In this document: positions 3,038 to 18,900 of the stretch, piece by piece | How the letters are laid out: every line of letters starts with the position of its first letter | How positions within the stretch are numbered: position 1 is the first letter of the stretch | Origin: a virus | Virus record (IMG/VR): IMGVR_UViG_3300020466_000024 | Location: 1 to 20,668 of that record | Length of the DNA stretch: 20,668 nucleotides | Strand: one strand, 5' to 3' | Position numbers and translations under genes: made by a program | Notes under the pieces: generated by a model | Told to the model about the DNA's origin: nothing | Database searches by the model: none | The model's input: only the letters and a program-made list of their open reading frames with translations

Positions 3038-3057
3038 GGGTGACAAACGGGGTGACA
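3038..3057 (+). repeat. Paired GGGTGACA direct repeats, 12-bp period
   Basis: Two copies of GGGTGACA start at 3038 and 3050. The same octamer with the same 12-bp spacing is found at 13488/13500 and 13682/13694, each time outside recognised coding sequence. The palindrome GGGTACCC (3029-3036) is next to it. A protein-binding site is likely; its ligand is unknown. Confidence 0.6.
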
Positions 3058-3704: not shown

Positions 3705-3720
3705 AAAATGTTTAACACGG
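3705..3720. promoter_or_regulatory. Operator-like TGTTTAACA copy upstream of the packaging genes
   Basis: Contains TGTTTAACA at 3709-3717, a 4-1-4 dyad (TGTT/AACA). Exact copies are at 9422, 9518, 13454 and 13717. On the minus strand a TTGTCA lies just upstream, a possible -35 box without a convincing -10. Confidence 0.5.
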
Positions 3721-4365: not shown

Positions 4366-4461
4366 TTATTTACAATTACAATCATCACAATCTTCACCGC
4401 ACTTCTTACACTCCCATTTAGGTGTCTCTAATTCATCATTATCATAATCTCGATCATTCAT
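4366..4461 (-). CDS. 31-aa cysteine-rich mini-protein, zinc-knuckle-like
   Basis: A very short frame with ATG at 4461 overlapping the primase-helicase stop as ATGA. It ends with TAA 2 nt before the next ATG. The acidic N-terminus (MNDRDYDNDELETPKWE) is followed by five cysteines in 13 residues: C18-x2-C21-x3-C25-x2-C28-x1-C30. Two CxxC pairs could bind one zinc ion as a minimal zinc ribbon. Perfect packing between two coupled genes and the cysteine pattern argue that it is real. A role as a small partner of replication proteins is a guess. Confidence 0.55.
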   Translation of the reverse strand: MNDRDYDNDELETPKWECKKCGEDCDDCNCK

Positions 4462-6215
4462 AATACTTCCAGATCTTCCTCCCAGCATAAACCGTATTTA
4501 CTATGTTTAAGTGGCATTTTAGTTGTGTATTCTCCAGTAAATGACTTTAAACCGGTCCTATTGCCTCTCTTAGTGGCATATAAGCTATATTTCTTGTCTT
4601 CACCAGAATGACTCACCAAAACCATGACTGCCCTGGCCCAATTGGTTAATGCACTGGATCCCAGGCCAGCATAAGCCCATTCATTTGCTCCCCAGTTGCT
4701 TGTTGATTTAGTATCTGTTTTAGGCTTACCAGTGTGATGCATTAGCATAATGATTACTCCCTTCTGTATTGCCAATTCCCTTAAAGGGTTTAGAAAGGCC
4801 ATTACGTCTTGTTGACTGTTCACTTCTCCATCCAAGTAGCTTAAAAGGTTATCAATCCAAATTAGATCAGTTTCCTCTTCCTCGATGATTTGTTCTAAGC
4901 GTGAAATAAATAAATGACCGTACAGCCCATTTACAGTGTAGACATTTACATTCTCTTTAATGGTATCGATATGCTTCTCATAGCTCATCCCTTTAACAAT
5001 GCCCTGCATTGACTCGGCTACATCACCAAAATCATTCTCCGACTGTATGATAGTTGACTTCAGAGCCTTCCAGGGTTCTATCCCGAAAAATGACGCTTGG
5101 ATTGACCAGGTGATTGCAGCCTGGATGCTTAAAACTGATTTCCCAATCCCACTGCCTCCAATCCACAGACAACTTCCACCTTTGCAAAGCCATCTGTTGC
5201 CAAGCAATGCATCGGGATCTTTCTCCGCATTCCAAAATAATGCAGTGTCCCAACATACCTTATCGTTTTTTTTTTGAGTTTCTGGCTTAGAATTTAGCCA
5301 GGTATTTAATTCACTAATTACATCTCCCTTAATATCACGGATCCAATCGTTAAGATCCTTATATTCTTTAGGTGGATATAATTTACGGGTAGGTGCCTTG
5401 ATTAGTGTGGCTTCCACTTTGTCAGCCCACACTTCTGCAGGGACTTTACCATTCTTCTCCTCATCATTTTGCATGATGAGTGTAGTGGGTAATTTTAAAT
5501 TAAAAGGAATTACTAAACCACCATTGCTTGCTCCCCTGGTAATTATAATCCTGGTATCTCTCTGCTCACCAAGTGCATCAATCAAAGCAAATGCATCCCA
5601 TTGAGATTCAAATATAAATTGTTGTGTAGGGGTTTTGGATCCTTCAATAACTAAAGGTTCCATCGATCCTCCATAGATACGCCAGGAACCATCCTTACGC
5701 CTCTGGTGTATGCCTGTGATTAATTCAAACTGCCATTTGCCCAGGTTGATCTCAGCGATACTGATAGGCATTGATAGTAAGCCATCCTTTAAGCCTATTA
5801 ACCTGGAATCTTTTAGCCATTGACAAAACTCAGGTCGATAACCTCTCCACTCAGCAAGCTCATCAATTTCTTTCTGAGTTATACGTCTAACGCATTCATT
5901 CCAGGGATGTTCCCAGGACTCAGCCAGGTATTTACTTTTTTCCCTGGGAGTATCACAGCCAGCAAGCTCCTTATATTTTTTAATAGCGTCACGATTAGAT
6001 AAGCCTAATGCGTGTTCAATAAATGTAACCTCATCACCAGACTCATCAGTGCCATGATCTTTAAAGAACCAATTACCATCATGCTGGAAGATTCCGAAAG
6101 AAGGATTTTTCTCATCACGAAATGGAGAGCGACATGATGCTTTCTGATACTCTGTACCATACCCAAGTTTGGACATAAGTGCAGGAAGTGGCAGACGTTG
6201 TTTACACTCATCCAT
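4458..6215 (-). CDS. Phage DNA primase-helicase (degenerate CHC2, TOPRIM-like, RecA/AAA_25 helicase)
   Basis: A 585-aa replication protein. The N-terminus resembles a CHC2 primase finger (CRSPFRDEKNPSFGIF, residues 28-43, then WFFKDHGTDESGDEVTFIEHAL), but only one Cys of the usual zinc set remains. Residues 198-255 (QFIFESQWDAFALIDALG...IIITRGASNGG...LIMQNDEE) fit a TOPRIM-like fold. The C-terminal half is a RecA-type helicase with Walker A GGSGIGKS (353-360), Walker B LIWIDN (451-456) and an LMHHTGK motif (491-497). It probably primes and unwinds the phage origin. It follows a nuclease gene with an 8-nt overlap. The ATG at 6215 has no strong ribosome site, so coupling is likely. Confidence 0.88.
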   Translation of the reverse strand: MDECKQRLPLPALMSKLGYGTEYQKASCRSPFRDEKNPSFGIFQHDGNWFFKDHGTDESGDEVTFIEHALGLSNRDAIKKYKELAGCDTPREKSKYLAESWEHPWNECVRRITQKEIDELAEWRGYRPEFCQWLKDSRLIGLKDGLLSMPISIAEINLGKWQFELITGIHQRRKDGSWRIYGGSMEPLVIEGSKTPTQQFIFESQWDAFALIDALGEQRDTRIIITRGASNGGLVIPFNLKLPTTLIMQNDEEKNGKVPAEVWADKVEATLIKAPTRKLYPPKEYKDLNDWIRDIKGDVISELNTWLNSKPETQKKNDKVCWDTALFWNAEKDPDALLGNRWLCKGGSCLWIGGSGIGKSVLSIQAAITWSIQASFFGIEPWKALKSTIIQSENDFGDVAESMQGIVKGMSYEKHIDTIKENVNVYTVNGLYGHLFISRLEQIIEEEETDLIWIDNLLSYLDGEVNSQQDVMAFLNPLRELAIQKGVIIMLMHHTGKPKTDTKSTSNWGANEWAYAGLGSSALTNWARAVMVLVSHSGEDKKYSLYATKRGNRTGLKSFTGEYTTKMPLKHSKYGLCWEEDLEVL

Positions 6216-6558
6216 TAATCAATTCATTTAAACGCTTATTGTCTTTAAGAAGTCTGATAAGATGATCGAACTCAATTATCGCAAGTGGTTTCTTTCTGTT
6301 CTTGAACCATATAAGTACTGGATCCTTGGACGCACAGTCTTCACGGGCACGTTCCATCGTTGTTTGAACAGAGAGAGATTCAACTCCTTTGATCTCCCAG
6401 TATAAGCTAGGAAACTCTGGAGTAAGAATATCACTCGCATCGGGATTGCGACCACAGAACTGCTGCGAACGTCTGGCTTCAATTCCATTCTCTTTGAGTA
6501 TGTTAACAGCTTTAAGCTCATTGGCTTTTCCTTTAGCTTTGGAATTAATTTTACCCAC
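6208..6558 (-). CDS. PDDEXK-type nuclease, Holliday-junction-resolvase-like
   Basis: A 116-aa protein starting with GTG at 6558. It overlaps the exonuclease gene by 8 nt and has GGGAG upstream. Motifs suit small PDDEXK nucleases: KGKANELKAVNIL (E14 on the first helix), RRSQQFCGRNPDASDIL (D43) and WEIKGVESLS (E55-x-K57), then a central strand PVLIWFKNRKKPLAIIEF. In phages such enzymes resolve branched DNA before packaging or act in recombination. The neighbours (SSB, exonuclease and primase-helicase) agree. The exact substrate cannot be told from sequence. Confidence 0.75.
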   Translation of the reverse strand: MGKINSKAKGKANELKAVNILKENGIEARRSQQFCGRNPDASDILTPEFPSLYWEIKGVESLSVQTTMERAREDCASKDPVLIWFKNRKKPLAIIEFDHLIRLLKDNKRLNELING

Positions 6559-7246
6559 ACGTTTTCTCCCAAACTCTTTCAGTTATTTTTAGATCGTTCT
6601 TTAAATAATCGATAGCAGCTTCGGGATTAGTTTTATACAACTCACTAAAGTGTTTCCCGTTACCAGACTTGCCTTTGATTTTTAAAAACTTACAGAAGTT
6701 ATCCAGGGAAATGGTTTCGTTAAAAATTCCACATGCCCAGGTATCCATTAGATCAATTATGTTATCTCTCCAGTATCTGTTTTGCTGGAGAATATTTCGC
6801 GGATAGTCAACGCCACAGTGAAAACCCCTGCGAATAATATAAGGCAAATCAAACTTGCGAATATTAAAACCAATAAAAGGCTGTGGATCATAATTCCTCC
6901 AATAAGTCCAAAAGTCATTGATGATATCTGACTCACGTCCTTCGAGTATTGTGTACTTCCCGTCCCTGAGAAGACCGATTGCAATGATTTGCCCTGTGAG
7001 TGGCGAGAGTGCTGCCTTATCAAGCCAAGCGATGCGTTTCGCATCGATGGCTTTGTTAATTTTTTCTTCATCCTTGATGTTCTTTGGTGCCTCGAAATCT
7101 GGCACGAATTGCTCCAAGTCATCGGCATCCATAGGGCCGGTTTCGATGTCGAAAAATGTAGGCTCATTAATATACACTCTATCCTTCAAATCTTCGTCGC
7201 TAATTTTTGGAAAGGTCGTTGTCCGTTCTCGTTTAAAACGGGACAT
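6551..7246 (-). CDS. DEDD 3'-5' exonuclease, PolB-exonuclease-like, stand-alone
   Basis: A 231-aa protein from the ATG at 7246. This start is preferred over the ATG at 7252 because AGGAGG lies 6 nt upstream of it but touches the other. The DnaQ-like motifs are ExoI FDIET (D33, E35), ExoII GFNIRKFDLPYI (N128, D133) and ExoIII YLKNDLKIT (D218). It resembles the exonuclease domain of family B polymerases without a polymerase domain. It may proofread for the host polymerase or process ends during recombination with the SSB and resolvase-like partners. The ribosome site is made of the codons for the acidic tail of the upstream SSB-like gene. Confidence 0.88.
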   Translation of the reverse strand: MSRFKRERTTTFPKISDEDLKDRVYINEPTFFDIETGPMDADDLEQFVPDFEAPKNIKDEEKINKAIDAKRIAWLDKAALSPLTGQIIAIGLLRDGKYTILEGRESDIINDFWTYWRNYDPQPFIGFNIRKFDLPYIIRRGFHCGVDYPRNILQQNRYWRDNIIDLMDTWACGIFNETISLDNFCKFLKIKGKSGNGKHFSELYKTNPEAAIDYLKNDLKITERVWEKTCG

Positions 7247-7838
7247 CGTCATCCTCCTCTTCTACTACCTGGGGTGCAGGGGCAGGAGCTGGAGGTTGTG
7301 TTTTCTTTGGAGCTGGTGCGGGAGTTGGAGTTGACACTTCTTCAGCCGGCACCAGTTGCCACTCACCATCTATTTTAGTCATCAACTTGCGTTTCAATGA
7401 TGCATCAATAATTAAATCATTAGATTTTTTAGGTGGCTTAATTTTAGAAATGTAACTTCTTTTGCCCCCACCATTTTCAGGAGTGAAGTCATCAATCATA
7501 ATTGTAGCTTTGACACCGATTAATTTATCAAAATGAAAATCACTAAAATCAACAGGCTTTTCATCTCTCCAAGATTTTAATGCTTTATAAAGATTACCAC
7601 TTGAAGATGTAGTGTTATTATATGTTTTGCGAATTGTCATTGGCTCACCGTCAGCCGTCTTTTGACCAACCATAAAATCAATTGCTATTCGTTCTTGTAC
7701 ACCAAAATCACCAGCGTTGTATTCTGGTATATGGTACCAATCGATGCATATAGCATCGTGCATTCCTACTTCTACTTGTTCCCAGGATCCAGCTTCTGCA
7801 GTTGCACTCGCTTCTCCTGTACTACTTATTTTTCCCAT
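7233..7838 (-). CDS. Single-stranded DNA-binding protein-like, with acidic DDDVPF tail
   Basis: Read from the ATG at 7838 it has 201 residues. A GTG at 7895 would add 19 residues and I consider it less likely. The core (SWEQVEVGMHDAICIDWYHIPEY...ERIAIDFMVG...MTIRKTYNNTTSSSGNLYKALKSWR...KLIGVKATIMIDDF) is beta-rich and OB-fold-like. A Pro/Ala linker (TPTPAPAPKKTQPPAPAPAP) leads to the tail EEEDDDVPF, nearly the same as the partner-binding tip of bacterial SSB (DDDIPF). It should coat ssDNA and recruit the co-transcribed exonuclease, nuclease and primase-helicase. The fold is inferred. The tail is plain in the sequence. Confidence 0.8.
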   Translation of the reverse strand: MGKISSTGEASATAEAGSWEQVEVGMHDAICIDWYHIPEYNAGDFGVQERIAIDFMVGQKTADGEPMTIRKTYNNTTSSSGNLYKALKSWRDEKPVDFSDFHFDKLIGVKATIMIDDFTPENGGGKRSYISKIKPPKKSNDLIIDASLKRKLMTKIDGEWQLVPAEEVSTPTPAPAPKKTQPPAPAPAPQVVEEEDDDVPF

Positions 7839-7856
7839 GTTAGTTTTTTCTTCGTC

Positions 7857-9195: not shown

Positions 9196-9358
9196 TTTTT
9201 GGAGGCTCTTCCCCCAGACCCCAGTAATTTAAAATTGCAGCTCTTAAAAATTTAGACATACCCTTGTGAACTTTAGCCCCATCCCTCAAGAGCCTGTCTG
9301 TCTGAGGATCCACTCTAAACCCCCTAGTTTTGTGCTTTTTTGTTTGCAGTTGGCTCAT
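9182..9358 (-). CDS. Small RHH-like protein, first gene of the leftward early operon
   Basis: A 58-aa protein. TRGFRVDPQTDRLLRDGAKVHKGMSKFLRAAILNYWG fits a ribbon-helix-helix: strand RGFRV, helix PQTDRLLRDGAKVH, turn KGMSK and helix FLRAAILNYW. The ATG at 9358 faces the divergent control region full of TGTT/AACA palindromes, with AAGAAGG just upstream. This is the layout of an autoregulating repressor, and I consider it and the RHH gene at 9575 the two candidate master regulators. Confidence 0.65.
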   Translation of the reverse strand: MSQLQTKKHKTRGFRVDPQTDRLLRDGAKVHKGMSKFLRAAILNYWGLGEEPPKNEQK

Positions 9359-9419
9359 GCCTTCTTTTGTAGTCGTGTTTTACATGACAACACAAACATT
9401 AATTTTTCACAGTATTCAC

Positions 9420-9455
9420 AATGTTAAACATTAAAAGTTAACAAGCTGTTAACAG
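9420..9455. promoter_or_regulatory. Operator cluster near the early operon, palindromic TGTT/AACA sites
   Basis: Three sites in 36 bp: the perfect dyad AATGTT-A-AACATT (9420-9432, containing TGTTAAACA), GTTAACA (9437-9443) and the perfect palindrome CTGTTAACAG (9446-9455). They lie about 65-100 bp before the ATG at 9358 and just upstream of the plus-strand promoter. A dimeric repressor is likely to bind here. Confidence 0.6.
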
Positions 9456-9462
9456 ATTTAAT

Positions 9463-9491
9463 TTGACCCCATTGTTACTAAGGATTAGAAG
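9463..9491 (+). promoter_or_regulatory. Likely promoter of the plus-strand accessory genes
   Basis: TTGACC (9463-9468), 17-nt spacer, TAGAAG (9486-9491), pointing to the gene at 9575. Matches to sigma70 are 5/6 and 4/6. It is bracketed by operator-like sites at 9420-9455 and 9514-9526. Confidence 0.45.
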
Positions 9492-9513
9492 AATCAACCG
9501 TTCGCGGTACTGA

Positions 9514-9526
9514 TTAATGTTTAACA
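9514..9526. promoter_or_regulatory. Operator-like site between promoter and first accessory gene
   Basis: TTAATGTTTAACA is the exact 13-bp reverse complement of 9422-9434. A further near-copy, GGTTTAACA, is at 9562-9570, just before the ATG at 9575. Both lie downstream of the predicted start of transcription, where a bound repressor would block it. Confidence 0.55.
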
Positions 9527-9574
9527 AAAAAAAATTAGATATTAGACTTGGCTTATCCCCAGGTTTAACAATTT

Positions 9575-11085: not shown

Positions 11086-12771
11086 TTAAGCTGCAACAAT
11101 TTTATCAATAATATCGATAACATTGTCCTCCTTACTGAGATCCCCCAGGTCATCTAGCCAATCATTTTCGATCACGTCGAAATAGGTTGCATAGTGACGT
11201 TCCACAACTGCAATAGAGTTGCCTAGCAGCTTCGCTGCAGCCTCAACACCTAGCTTCTGGTATACTATGGACCCAAGGTGCTTCCTAAGCCTATAAAACA
11301 ATTTCTGTCCACCATTTGGATCTTTCCATCCTATACCTAAAAGAAAAGCATTCACTCGGTTCCAATTGCCTTCACCCCTCTGATATGCAGTTCCTTCAAG
11401 GACAAAGTCTTCAGCTTCACTGCCATCAAGTTTAGGTGCTTGTCCATTGCGTGGACAATATTGATAATTAATTGAATCAGCTACAGCCACGATTTCTTTA
11501 TAAGCTTTCTTGCTCCATCCAGTTTTCCAAGCCGCAACTCCCTGGCCTAGATATTTGTCTAAACCTAGTTCATAACGGTGGTGAGCATGAAGCACTGCCT
11601 GTGTAGTTGACCGGCAAAAGCCACTAGCATTTGCTACATCCTCAATACGAACTCCATTATCAATATGCTTTTTGTCTTTTAATTTTAGGAGCTGCTCTAA
11701 AGACCATTTACTTAATTGGATAGTATTACCTTTTTTGTTTTTCCGTTGACCCTTCTTTAAAGAAATTAATTGCCCATGAATATCTGACCATTTCAATTTA
11801 GTAATCTCAGAGTTTCTAAAGGCACCATTTAAACCAAGTAATATTGATCGGAATATATTACGCTCATCCGGTAAGTGTGAGTTTGCAAAATGCTGAAACT
11901 CCCGCTTAGTTAACTCCCAGGTTTTTTGTCCATGAGTCCCATCGGCAGGAGGAACATAATGCACACTGTAGTTGCACTCCATTTGAGGAATGTCGTTAGC
12001 AGATTTCACCGCAAATCTCTCACGATCACTAAGCTGATATGTCTCAGCCTTGTTCTCGCCAGAAATTAGTTCCTTAGTGAACAAAGCCTTAGCACGACCA
12101 AGACGTGCATTCTCATTGTAAATAACAAGCTCATATTCCTGGCTACCTTTCTCGCCTTCGCATTGAGCTTGGCTACGAGTGAACTGCTTGAACCTGGCAG
12201 TGACATCATCGTTCCAAGCGTCCTCGATGGGTTGGTTCAGAATAGCCTCAACAAACTTATGACCACTTGTAATCACAATTTTCTTTTTTGATGATTCATC
12301 TATATCCAGAACCTTACGACTTTTTTGTGCCCCAGGATCCCCTGGAGATATAGGCCAAGCTTCTTTATTCTGTCCAATATAACTTGCAGCCAGGAAATCC
12401 TTAAACACTTGTTTCTTCGTTTTACGATCAGTAAGAAACCAATACAGATTAAATATCTCACGGACTGTACGAACATTTCTCGATGCAGACTCCAGAGCTT
12501 TTATTGCTTTGATCTTTGCCTCGCCTCGATCCTTGCCAAATTGAATTAGAATTGAATCAGCAAACTTAACTGCTGTAGCTAGGTCTGCAGTTCCAGATGA
12601 TTTATCAAATCCCCCCTTGCCCTTTCTACGAACATACCACTTACCTGACCGCAAACGGAAAGTCGTGCCTCGATAATGGTAACCCTTATCGGTTGCAGTG
12701 ATATGATGCTTCTCACTATTCACCTTAAATGTGTGAGATCCTTTTTTAAGAATTTTTTCTTCCAGTGTCAT
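11086..12771 (-). CDS. int: Tyrosine site-specific recombinase (phage integrase)
   Basis: Read from the ATG at 12771 (561 aa), with AAAGGA 9-10 nt upstream. A TTG at 12807 overlapping the previous stop would add 12 residues. Numbering is from the ATG. The N-terminal 280 residues are an arm/core-binding region. Catalytic motifs are GAFRNSEITKLKW (R319), SLKKGQ (K339/K340), RLRKHLGS (R496, K497, H498), LLGNS (N518, where His or Trp is usual) and the nucleophile in ERHYATYF (Y527). The box-II His seems to be Tyr (FYRLR). About 150 residues separate the Lys strand from the second Arg, longer than usual. It integrates phage DNA at attP/attB. The attP candidate lies at 13488-13715, one gene away. 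Confidence 0.9.
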   Translation of the reverse strand: MTLEEKILKKGSHTFKVNSEKHHITATDKGYHYRGTTFRLRSGKWYVRRKGKGGFDKSSGTADLATAVKFADSILIQFGKDRGEAKIKAIKALESASRNVRTVREIFNLYWFLTDRKTKKQVFKDFLAASYIGQNKEAWPISPGDPGAQKSRKVLDIDESSKKKIVITSGHKFVEAILNQPIEDAWNDDVTARFKQFTRSQAQCEGEKGSQEYELVIYNENARLGRAKALFTKELISGENKAETYQLSDRERFAVKSANDIPQMECNYSVHYVPPADGTHGQKTWELTKREFQHFANSHLPDERNIFRSILLGLNGAFRNSEITKLKWSDIHGQLISLKKGQRKNKKGNTIQLSKWSLEQLLKLKDKKHIDNGVRIEDVANASGFCRSTTQAVLHAHHRYELGLDKYLGQGVAAWKTGWSKKAYKEIVAVADSINYQYCPRNGQAPKLDGSEAEDFVLEGTAYQRGEGNWNRVNAFLLGIGWKDPNGGQKLFYRLRKHLGSIVYQKLGVEAAAKLLGNSIAVVERHYATYFDVIENDWLDDLGDLSKEDNVIDIIDKIVAA

Positions 12772-12803: not shown

Positions 12804-13403
12804 TCAAGCATATGAGCTGGTGCGAATTGCCTTACCCTCCCATTTAGAAAGAGTGCCACTGATTGGTGCCTTAACGGTACCATCACCTTGAACCAGTTTT
12901 TTAATAACCGGAGCATCCTCTACAAACTCGTTTCTACGAGGTTGTGTTAATCCCCCACAAGGTGAACCATGAAAGTCAGAAGAATTCTGACACACCTCAA
13001 TAAAGGAAACATAAGAACCCTTGACACCTACCACTTGGTAGAACTCAACATTAGTTTGATCGTAACCCCAGGATGAGTAGAGAACATCACCAACATAAAA
13101 GTGATCCTCTGCTTTCGCAGCCTTCTTTGGCTTGCGATTTTCAACCCACTTATTGATGCCCTCAATAACTCCTTGAGCATATTCATCTCTACGCTGAGAT
13201 GTAGAGAAGGTGTAATAGCAAGTAGGCCTTGCTGCAGTGCCTTTAAATATCTTCAAGTCGAAGAAGTATTTACCGTTTGCCCTGGCACCTTCTGTCTTGC
13301 AGACGATGCAGTTTTCTAGCCGATCAATTGACCAACCAGAATGCTTGTGTTGTTTAAGGATTGCCTCGCGAATTGCGAGCCGATTTGCTTTTGTATTTTT
13401 CAT
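12804..13403 (-). CDS. Phage/plasmid-type protein of unknown function with SSWGYDQTNV motif
   Basis: From the ATG at 13403 it has 199 residues. The frame stays open to 13562, but that extension crosses the GGGTGACA repeats and the operator, so I reject it. The middle holds FYVGDVLYSSWGYDQTNVEFYQVVGVKGSYVSFIEV, a signature I recall from uncharacterised proteins of plasmids and phages. The C-terminus (GTVKAPISGTLSKWEGKAIRTSSYA) resembles the end of the same proteins. The fold is probably an all-beta barrel. The stop overlaps a TTG of the integrase frame. The leader AAAGG-TACAAGACAGT is similar to that of the integrase. Confidence 0.65.
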   Translation of the reverse strand: MKNTKANRLAIREAILKQHKHSGWSIDRLENCIVCKTEGARANGKYFFDLKIFKGTAARPTCYYTFSTSQRRDEYAQGVIEGINKWVENRKPKKAAKAEDHFYVGDVLYSSWGYDQTNVEFYQVVGVKGSYVSFIEVCQNSSDFHGSPCGGLTQPRRNEFVEDAPVIKKLVQGDGTVKAPISGTLSKWEGKAIRTSSYA

Positions 13404-13453
13404 ACTGTCTTGTACCTTTCTGCCATCAGAACCCCTTCCGGTGGCTGGCGAAA

Positions 13454-13462
13454 TGTTAAACA
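13454..13462. promoter_or_regulatory. Operator-like TGTTAAACA upstream of the integrase unit
   Basis: An exact copy (reverse complement) of the 9-mer TGTTTAACA, 50 nt upstream of the ATG at 13403, placed where a promoter for the leftward int unit would be. It is 25 bp from the nearest GGGTGACA repeat. Confidence 0.5.
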
Positions 13463-13487
13463 AATTTAAAAACTTGGCAACAAAAAA

Positions 13488-13715
13488 GGGTGACAAAATG
13501 GGTGACAGTAAATTACGAGATGCAAAAAACGCTTTATTTATTAAGAAAAACAGATATATCAATGTTCCAGTTCAAGAAACTTTTTTCTGTTTTTTTACTA
13601 AGAGAAAACGCTGTTTGTTAAGAAACAGCGTTCAGTGAACTGTCACCAAGCATCATTAAACACCTCAAACTGTCAGTCATTGGGTGACAAAATGGGTGAC
13701 AGTGGGTGACAGTAA
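13488..13715 (+). repeat. GGGTGACA/TGACAGT repeat cluster around an inverted repeat: candidate attP or iteron array
   Basis: Direct GGGTGACA units start at 13488, 13500, 13682, 13694 and 13704 (12, 12 and 10 bp within groups). A 22-bp block is identical at 13488-13509 and 13682-13703. Two inverted ACTGTCA units are at 13639-13645 and 13669-13675. The groups flank the 10-bp inverted repeat at 13607-13632. Arms of short repeats around a core inverted repeat, near an integrase gene, is how attP sites are built. An origin or operator array is the alternative. This fills most of the gene-free stretch 13404-13719. Confidence 0.6.
13607..13632 (-). terminator. Perfect 10-bp inverted repeat: terminator of the late genes or attP core
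   Basis: AACGCTGTTT (13607-13616) and AAACAGCGTT (13623-13632) are separated by GTTAAG. In minus-strand RNA the stem is followed by UUCUCUU, a weak U-tract, so it may terminate transcription 88 nt after the gene ending at 13720. The 6-bp spacer between symmetrical 10-bp arms also fits a tyrosine-recombinase core with a short crossover region. Confidence 0.5.
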
Positions 13716-13716
13716 T

Positions 13717-13725
13717 TGTTTAACA
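13717..13725. promoter_or_regulatory. Operator-like TGTTTAACA at the end of the late genes
   Basis: An exact copy of the 9-mer next to the last GGGTGACA unit. It overlaps the TAA stop of the winged-helix gene that ends at 13720. Confidence 0.45.
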
Positions 13726-13935
13726 TTTCTTTGGTTTCCAGATGCTAAGTTTTCTACCCTTCATTATAAACGATTTCTTTTCAACTTCACCCCTGGCAAG
13801 CCTTCGCTTCAAACGCTTATAAACAGTTTCCATAGGCAATTTTAATTCTTCAGAAATTTGGCTAGTAGTAGCCCAACCTTCGGGCACTTCTTCCTCATCA
13901 AACTGAGATAAAATTTTTATCCAATCGCTCATCAT
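13720..13935 (-). CDS. Small winged helix-turn-helix protein
   Basis: A 71-aa protein. EGWATTSQISEELKLPMETVYKRLKRRLARGEVEKKSFIMKGRKLSIWKPKK is a compact winged helix of MarR/IclR size: helix 2 QISEEL, recognition helix MQ-like METVYKRLKRRLARG, then a wing. The start ATGATG at 13935 overlaps the phosphoesterase stop. It is the last gene of the late unit, and similar small HTH proteins often end phage structural operons. The role is unknown. Confidence 0.65.
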   Translation of the reverse strand: MMSDWIKILSQFDEEEVPEGWATTSQISEELKLPMETVYKRLKRRLARGEVEKKSFIMKGRKLSIWKPKKC

Positions 13936-15914: not shown

Positions 15915-18900
15915 TTATTTTCCTATTTTTTTATTTGCGATTTTTTCAGCCGATTCAATTGACTTGCCAACTCCAGCCATTGAACCGTCTGGTGAATAAA
16001 CTCTGTATTTAGTTCCAGCTTTAACAATTCTCCAACCAATTTGATTCTCTAAAAATTCAGAATCACCTATTTTCCCTCTAGGCTTAAAGGTTGTGTCAGC
16101 CGCAGCCGCATTTAAAATTTCACTTGGCACCACAGTTGCCTTCTGTTGAGCGAATGGACGGTTTCTAGGGTGAACATACCCAGACTCACCTTCAAGCGGT
16201 ACACGTCCATCTAGACCCCTTAAATGCGATCCAAAGTTTACCCATGCGTTTTGTGCTAGGGTTTCTGCAGCTAATGCACCTTGTGCAAGCTGTGAGTACA
16301 TTGATGAGTGTTCAAGGTATGCATTGTACTCGCCCCTTTGTCCAAATTGGAATCCCTGGGGAGTGTGCCCGAAATAATCATGTACAATTCTAAAAGCATC
16401 ATTAAGCACCATTCCATTACCAATCTCTTCAAGCATTGGATGATCACCTGGGATTGAATCTTCACCAAATCCTTTGTCAGTAGAAAAATACCACATATGA
16501 TTATTGTCTCTAACATCTTTCATCATCTCTTTGGAATTTGCGTAAGGCTCACCATCCCCTTTCCAGGCTTCAAATTTTAATCCAGCTTTTTTTAGTGCAT
16601 CAAATTGAGCTAGGGTTTCATCTCTAAGAGCTTTGTAACTTGCCTGGACTACAGGACTATCTGGCTCATGCGGTTGTTGCTGGAACCAATCTGCAACCTG
16701 GGAAAGCAAGTCAGGATTTACTGGGAAGTAGCCACCGTGTGGTTTGTATTCAATTCCAGATTTTCGAGCATAGATTTGCTGTACACGCCTAGTCTTAGAA
16801 TTACCATCAACTGGTAAATAATTTACATCTTCCGAACCAGAATGGTTCCGAATAACACCTTGGGCTTTTTGTAAATTTTTTGGGAGAGGATCTACAGATC
16901 CTAATATTCTTTCTTGGGCCTTGGTGGGATCGAGTAATCCTGGGGCGTGTTCTTGGAAGGCGTTTTCGAGGTGCTGGACGTAGGTTTTACGGTAATCATC
17001 GACGAGCCTAGCTCTTTCAGAGCCTCCTCGTTCGATAATTTTCGGAAGGTAACCTTCCCCGTTTCTTTGGACTGACCAGTCATTACTTGTCGTTTCTGTG
17101 ACGGCACTTAAACCATCAACATCTAAATCGATCCTGTGCCTTGCAGCCCAATCAGTCAATATCTTTTCTACATAGGTTTCTCCCTTACCAGAAAGCCCTG
17201 CAATCAGAAGACCTTTGTCATCTGGGGTGGCATGGGCACTGAATCCACTCATCAAACGCATGGCTTTTTTATCTCCTTTAATTGATTCCATTAATGAATC
17301 AATTTGTTTTTGAGTTAACGCTTGGCCATTAGTTCTTTTAAATTTAACTGCTCTTTTATCCTTGCCTCCTTTGCCAAACTGAACTGACAAGGTTCCACCT
17401 TGCTGGCTAACTAAGGCAAGGCTGTCTCTAAAAATTCCAGCAGCAGCAGGAGATCCTAATGTAAATATTTGAACTGATGGTGATTTTGTTCCTTGCCAAA
17501 ATCCAACACCAGTTTTAATGGATTGAACTTTTAAACTTCCACCAACAATCTTAGCTATATCTTTAGTAGCATTAGTTAAAACATCTCTAGTAATCTTTTG
17601 CTGAACATCTAGTGGAAGTTCATTAAATACTGGATACTCTTTTGAAAGTCCTTGTGAATAATCATAATTAACTTCCGCACTAATTCGGTGAGTATTAGTA
17701 ACCATTGCTTCAGCTACAGTTGACTCAGGCAATCCGTATTGCCTCAATATTCTCATCCATCCTGCCGCTTGTGCTTCAAGTGGACTCCAGTTTCCTCCTT
17801 CAAAATTATTTTCGTTAAGCCAATCGCTAAGTTTATTCCCCCAAACAGAAATACCCTCATATTGTGTACTACCAGGTGAACCAATCATGTCACTGGTTAG
17901 CTCCTGCTTGGATCCATCAGCTCTTTCAATTCCCACTCTAACAGGAACTTCTTGTGTCCTGTCTTTTGCTTTTATTTTTTTTGTTTCAAGTGGAGTGATT
18001 TTAACAGGCTGACCATCTATAAATAAACCATCTTTAGACTTCTGTATTAAACGAGACAAAGTTGTGTGATCCACATGACCAGAATCTCGACCAGTGTGTA
18101 CATCTGCTACAAAAGGTTTGCCTCCTGCTTTGTCACCTCCCATGAAGGTGCGAGTCTCTCTTAAATAAGCACTATCAACAAAGTCTGATAGCTTTGGTCC
18201 GAATCCTTTTTTCGGCAGTTTGCCTGTTAAGATCTGTTGAATCTTTTCATCTGCTAAACCACCTTTTAATACCTTACCAGTTTTAGGATCTAACTCTACA
18301 ATTCCAGCAAGCCTATCTTGCACCCTAAAAACATTAGCTAGTGCAGCTATGGGAGAAGCATTTTGTTGTGCCCCTAACCAGCTCATCATCATCCTGCCAG
18401 CTTTTTGTTTACCGAACACTCTTTCAAACTCAGTGTTTAGTACACGATACCATTGACGAGCCGCACTAATCTCTTCTGGTGATAACCAGATCTTTGTTTC
18501 TTCAGCCCATCCAGCAAAAGGTTTACCACCATCCTTCTCTGTAGCTCCTATGTAAATTGGTTTACCCTGGGCATCTTCAAATCTAATTGCAGGATTTTTG
18601 GCAACTCCTGTTTTAGGTTTTCTTGCCTGTGCAAGTCTTAGATTCTCTTCAACATCACCAACAGCATCTCGATGCCAGGTACTGACATCCCCTTTCGGCA
18701 TGAAATTTTGCTGATTCAATGCATAGATATCTTCATTAAATGGAATGAAATCCCTGTCAGGTCTTGGATCCCATTTAGCAATACGATCAGCTCTAAATGA
18801 TCGTATTAAAAAATCTTTATCTTTGATTGTCTTACCAAGTGCTAATGGGTTTGTTGCCTCTCTCCCCCTGGCATTAAAAAACTGATTAAGAATATTTCGT

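Follow-up and report, generated by a model that had tools for sequence, protein, structure and literature searches.

A candidate attachment site formed by octamer clusters around a palindrome near a divergent phage tyrosine integrase gene

Results

A candidate attP near the integrase gene

The window, the whole 20,668-nucleotide stretch of phage DNA analyzed here, contains an intergenic region at 13404–13719 that we interpret as the attP of a tyrosine integrase with a lambda-like layout, with a probability of about 0.55. The integrase gene lies 0.6 kb away, arm-type repeats are present on either side of a potential core, and the repeated octamer recurs at recognizable att sites of other phages. 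The first-pass annotation had assigned the region as attP for the integrase encoded at 11086–12771. Its case is strengthened by the layout, the integrase alongside, and the presence of the same octamer at ssrA and tRNA-Leu cores, and is weakened by a core unlike tRNA, by an octamer that is not exclusive to att sites, and by the searches for attB, attL, and attR, which found none. Should the assignment hold, this largely unannotated phage, whose integrase is very divergent, would be temperate and would have its integration site here. The window is contained in a 31-kb contig, IMGVR_UViG_2788500413_000021, at 99.7% identity.

Architecture of the octamer array

Five exact plus-strand copies of GGGTGACA start at 13488, 13500, 13682, 13694, and 13704 and fall into two clusters within 13488–13711. 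The left cluster (13488–13507) holds two units 12 bp apart from start to start and provides the proposed far-arm sites, while the right cluster (13682–13711) holds three units, 12 and 10 bp apart, as the proposed near-arm sites. With this spacing of 10–12 bp in either cluster, the units are helically phased. A 22-bp block, GGGTGACAAAATGGGTGACAGT, is present in two exact copies spanning both clusters (13488–13509 and 13682–13703). The exact octamer occurs seven times in the window against 0.43 expected, a count attained by none of 100 shuffles, and the longest direct repeat of 22 exceeds the maximum of 14 among 300 shuffles.

The clusters are separated by a 174-bp gap with a GC content of 31.6%, as compared with 40.2% for the window. 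Within the gap lies a palindrome, AACGCTGTTT-GTTAAG-AAACAGCGTT, with a perfect 10-6-10 arrangement at 13607–13632, located 99 nt from the left cluster and 49 nt from the right cluster. Inverted ACTGTCA motifs follow at 13639 and 13669. The copy at 13639, ACTGTCACCA, corresponds to an inverted octamer unit with one mismatch in the octamer (arm-like unit TGGTGACAGT, minus strand, 13639–13648), and the weaker inverted unit GACTGACAGT (minus strand, 13669–13678) shares TGACAGT. The palindrome with its 6-nt center, the two octamers to its left and three to its right, and the inverted motifs between had all been described in the first-pass annotation, and each was recovered at its position. Absent from that annotation is a perfect 14-bp inverted repeat (13450–13463 and 13716–13729) that encloses the array region; inverted repeats of at least 14 bp arose in 10 of 300 shuffles, and by itself the repeat is not strongly significant. 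The palindrome taken alone is likewise only moderately unusual, as a perfect 10-bp inverted repeat also appeared in 19 of 2000 shuffles of the region.

The integrase and its neighboring genes

On the minus strand, the gene order is a metallophosphoesterase, a 71-residue winged-helix protein, the intergenic region 13404–13719, a 199-residue protein, and the 561-residue integrase. The integrase (11086–12771, minus strand) is divergent in sequence, matching the PHROG integrase families at 2.9e-8 and PF00589 weakly, below the cut-off. Inspection of its sequence located Arg319, a Y493xxR496 motif, Asn518, and Tyr527, in which Tyr and Asn replace the two usual histidines. Searches with tblastn yielded no relative in the phage collection except the near-identical 31-kb contig, and none in bacterial genomes; the relatives of the neighboring metallophosphoesterase were also limited to this contig. 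Pfam finds no arm-binding domain in the N-terminal region of the integrase. A single-sequence model of the protein was unusable (pLDDT 34); the three strands and one helix that it places at residues 37–76 would fit such a domain.

The 199-residue protein (12804–13403, minus strand), encoded between the candidate attP and the integrase, belongs to PHROG 37844, for which no function is given. It has one relative at 27% identity, the surroundings of which contain no annotated integrase or octamer pair. The gene for the 71-residue protein (13720–13935, minus strand) ends 8 nt before the right cluster. Weak TrmB and HTH_20 matches and a structural model (pLDDT 78) assign a winged-helix fold to its product, and a fold search returned generic winged-helix matches (best E 1.3e-3). 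Small winged-helix excisionases near integrase genes are common, and this protein is a candidate excisionase; a regulator or an initiator are the other roles considered below.

As an attP, the region would operate through two modes of DNA binding. The N-terminal domain of the integrase would bind the GGGTGACA arm sites, three near the core on one side and two farther off on the other, while the catalytic domain would bind the palindromic core and exchange strands with the chromosomal site. The direction of the reaction would be set by DNA-bending proteins together with a small excisionase of the winged-helix type, which may be the 71-residue neighbor. What we infer here is that this integrase binds the sites, together with the precise point of crossover, the target in the chromosome, and which protein is the excisionase.

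This arrangement resembles that of known systems. Lambda integrase bridges arm sites and core, and lambda-type attP sites of heterobivalent tyrosine integrases likewise comprise five arm-type repeats on both sides of the core, beside the integrase gene (PMC4880445). In contrast to these sites, the window carries the octamer GGGTGACA and a perfect rather than an imperfect palindrome, and its arm binding is predicted from sequence. It also differs in IHF-like sites: no match to WATCAANNNNTTR within one mismatch was found in the region, and this consensus may not fit the bending protein of the host. The attP of ICEMlSym R7A, which at 283 bp is similar in extent, likewise carries five arm sites upstream of the integrase gene, together with a winged-helix excisionase; it differs in its arm consensus, TGKTGGTATC, and its target is known (PMC11963761).

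The octamer at ssrA and tRNA-Leu attachment sites

Six other phages (L043, L056, L102, L115, L137, and L163) have octamer clusters next to a tyrosine integrase gene, on both sides of the 3' end of a tmRNA gene (ssrA). The tmRNA was called by cmscan in L043, L056, L102, L115, and L137 (weak) from partial matches below the Rfam gathering score (E 2.5e-4 to 0.11), and in L163 by matching sequence. Outside the att site, these phages contain few copies of the octamer. Octamer clusters are also found on both sides of tRNA-Leu in L029, L030, L129, and L128, and a different integrase adjoins them in the first three. L078 has octamer clusters with a third integrase, and the 5' half of a tRNA-Leu was recognized there by eye.

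The ssrA phages resemble the window in their TGTCACCC clusters, cluster gap, and near-arm distance. The clusters are 164–165 nt apart at the ssrA att sites versus 174 in the window. At four fully scored ssrA sites, the near arm, core, and far arm measure 47–48, 28, and 89 nt, compared with 49, 26, and 99 nt in the window, and L056 and L163 have the same near-arm distance as these four. The far-arm excess of 10 nt in the window is one helical turn. Since it was the symmetry of the palindrome that led to its selection, the match in distances is supportive rather than proof. A wide layout, defined as a pair followed by a third unit after 155–185 nt, was found in 7 of 2.9 million contigs: this phage, five ssrA-integrase phages that represent one family rather than independent cases, and L108, a contig without a detected integrase, which counts against the attP reading. 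The ssrA phages differ from the window in that their core is the tmRNA 3' end and their arm sites are mostly close to the integrase 3' end. Their integrases are about 360–370 residues long, and a profile built from them does not find the window integrase. The 3' end of the integrase gene overlaps the arm sites in several of these phages, and their translation gives, for example, QNVTQMSPK or GDNLGDN.

The window itself contains no tRNA or tmRNA, and its core has no similarity to either. An exact search for the central 20-mer of the palindrome found nothing across 84,980 bacterial and archaeal genomes; the host is possibly absent from this set, or the crossover may lie elsewhere in the gap. A search of bacterial genomes for attL and attR hybrids found no locus with the integrase, and in viral contigs the core matched only itself.

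The palindrome could be a mere terminator of the upstream operon, with the true crossover elsewhere in the 174-bp gap or in the genome. This reading, which is compatible with an attP and overlaps it, appears somewhat improbable. In its favor, the stem is followed on the minus strand by TTCTCTTA, the stretch has a folding energy of −16.8 kcal/mol (z −3.0), 13720 marks the end of the upstream genes on this strand, and a second comparable perfect 10-bp inverted repeat occurs in the window at 18780. However, a terminator scan did not list the palindrome, and its near-arm distance is within 2 nt of that at the ssrA att sites.

Distribution of the octamer among viral contigs

Among 2.9 million viral contigs, at least 119 stretches match TGTCACCC-N4-TGTCACCC, whereas a complete scan with the octamer written backwards in the same pattern identified 21; the octamer pair is thus at least about six-fold more frequent than the control. 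Among the matches listed, the pairs occur at att sites, in replication initiators, in Mu-like phages, in phages with VapE-type helicases, and in coding repeats. At att sites, the clusters adjoin tyrosine integrases of at least three groups. Given these several contexts, the octamer alone does not identify an att site. Octamer-pair matches were rejected as proof of function on their own, since many are plain coding repeats, for example in a RecA-like protein, and the control loci also carry tandem repeats. The literature searched offered nothing relevant on arm sites of sequence TGTCACC or iterons of sequence GGTGACA.

In the five representatives tested, TGTCACC arrays also lie within genes encoding winged-helix, HTH_36, or Phage_rep_O domains; in the Phage_rep_O or HTH_36 initiator genes they sit just past the winged-helix domain. 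Such arrays, in winged-helix initiator-like genes, were observed in L058, L063, L089, L111, L028, and L035, where the linker encodes GDK or GVT repeats. This placement is an argument for regarding the region in the window as a replication origin, in which the GGGTGACA units would be iterons bound by the adjacent winged-helix protein and the AT-rich 174 bp between the clusters would be the unwinding region. The array directly follows a winged-helix gene in the window too, and the low GC content of the gap given above suits unwinding. Several observations argue against an origin, and we consider it quite unlikely. BLASTP gave no alignment between the 71-residue protein and one array-bearing initiator, and this protein has no RepO or HTH_36 match. 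The initiator arrays examined are more compact and have no 174-bp interruption. The phage has its replication genes elsewhere, at 4458–7841, and an origin leaves the nearby integrase unexplained.

Phage contigs are enriched in TGTCACC arrays, which recur in initiator genes as well as at att sites belonging to three or more integrase groups. The arrays provide a searchable signature for att sites and raise the question of which protein domains read the octamer. It is conceivable, though doubtful, that TGTCACC(C) is a DNA address common to phages, serving as an integrase arm site at ssrA and tRNA-Leu, as an iteron in initiator genes, and in this phage at both the integrase locus and a site downstream of terS. 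In nine Mu-like phages (L025, L032, L039, L047, L065, L081, L084, L103, and L131), TGTCACCC arrays are close to an S24 repressor gene and an rve/transposase-like gene.

A second octamer site downstream of terS and operator-like repeats

A second octamer site, absent from the first-pass annotation, lies 10 kb from the array and 32 nt downstream of terS, where exact copies of GGGTGACA at 3038 and 3050 form GGGTGACA-N4-GGGTGACA (3038–3057, plus strand). Both units are letter-identical in two relatives, L015 and L019, while the linkers vary. The retention of the pair suggests that something uses it away from the integrase. In L015, an GGGTGACA pair is found at 486–505, and in L019, a triple with one mismatch at 6613–6642, both downstream of terS. 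A G-rich tract, GACGCATTA, and TTTTTTTCYAAAAAAGA are conserved along with the pair, and this block may be an element for packaging or late control. Should a single protein recognize both octamer sites of the phage, it would link integration with packaging or with the control of late genes.

The reading that best explains the terS pair is one in which a small regulator of the phage, potentially the 71-residue winged-helix protein, recognizes the octamers at two loci as direct repeats spaced by one helical turn. The sites at the integrase locus would then control the integrase operon and perhaps excision, and those downstream of terS would control late genes. The conserved octamer indeed recurs at this second intergenic locus, and the end of the winged-helix gene is only 8 nt from the array. 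A distant relative, L064, also has arrays between its terminase and capsid genes. Comparable behavior is known for 186 Apl and P2 Cox, which act at att and at promoters through direct repeats spaced by roughly one helical turn; for Apl, the repeats are 10–11 bp apart and occur at attP and at pR-pL (PMC7498355). These systems differ from the window in that the Apl units are 6 bp and in that the second locus of the window is near terS rather than at a lysis-lysogeny switch (PMC7498355). A sigma-70-like promoter sequence, TTGCCA-16-TAACAT (13453–13480, minus strand), is positioned about 8 bp beyond the left cluster and directed toward the 199-residue gene and the integrase; however, the consensus scan that detected it found one such sequence against 1.8 expected, which is at chance level. 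Moreover, clusters on either side of a core with attP-like spacing are unusual for excisionase sites, and the same octamer flanks tRNA and tmRNA cores on both sides in other phages. On balance, we regard a regulator as unlikely to account for the array, and an attP is the reading that we prefer.

In L064, the arrays at 2851–2960 comprise two TGTCACCC pairs together with inverted GGCGACATTT copies. The 14-bp inverted repeat that encloses the array region in the window contains the TGTTTAACA copies at 13454 and 13717. Its left arm (13450–13463, minus strand) and right arm (13716–13729, plus strand) overlap, respectively, the −10-like hexamer of the integrase operon and the winged-helix gene at its 3' end. 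Judged from the sequence, TGTTTAACA is likely the operator of a phage-wide regulator. Exact copies of TGTTTAACA are located at 3709, 9422, 9518, 13454, and 13717, the first four in intergenic regions and the last across the end of the winged-helix gene; they include copies in the divergent control region at 9196–9574.
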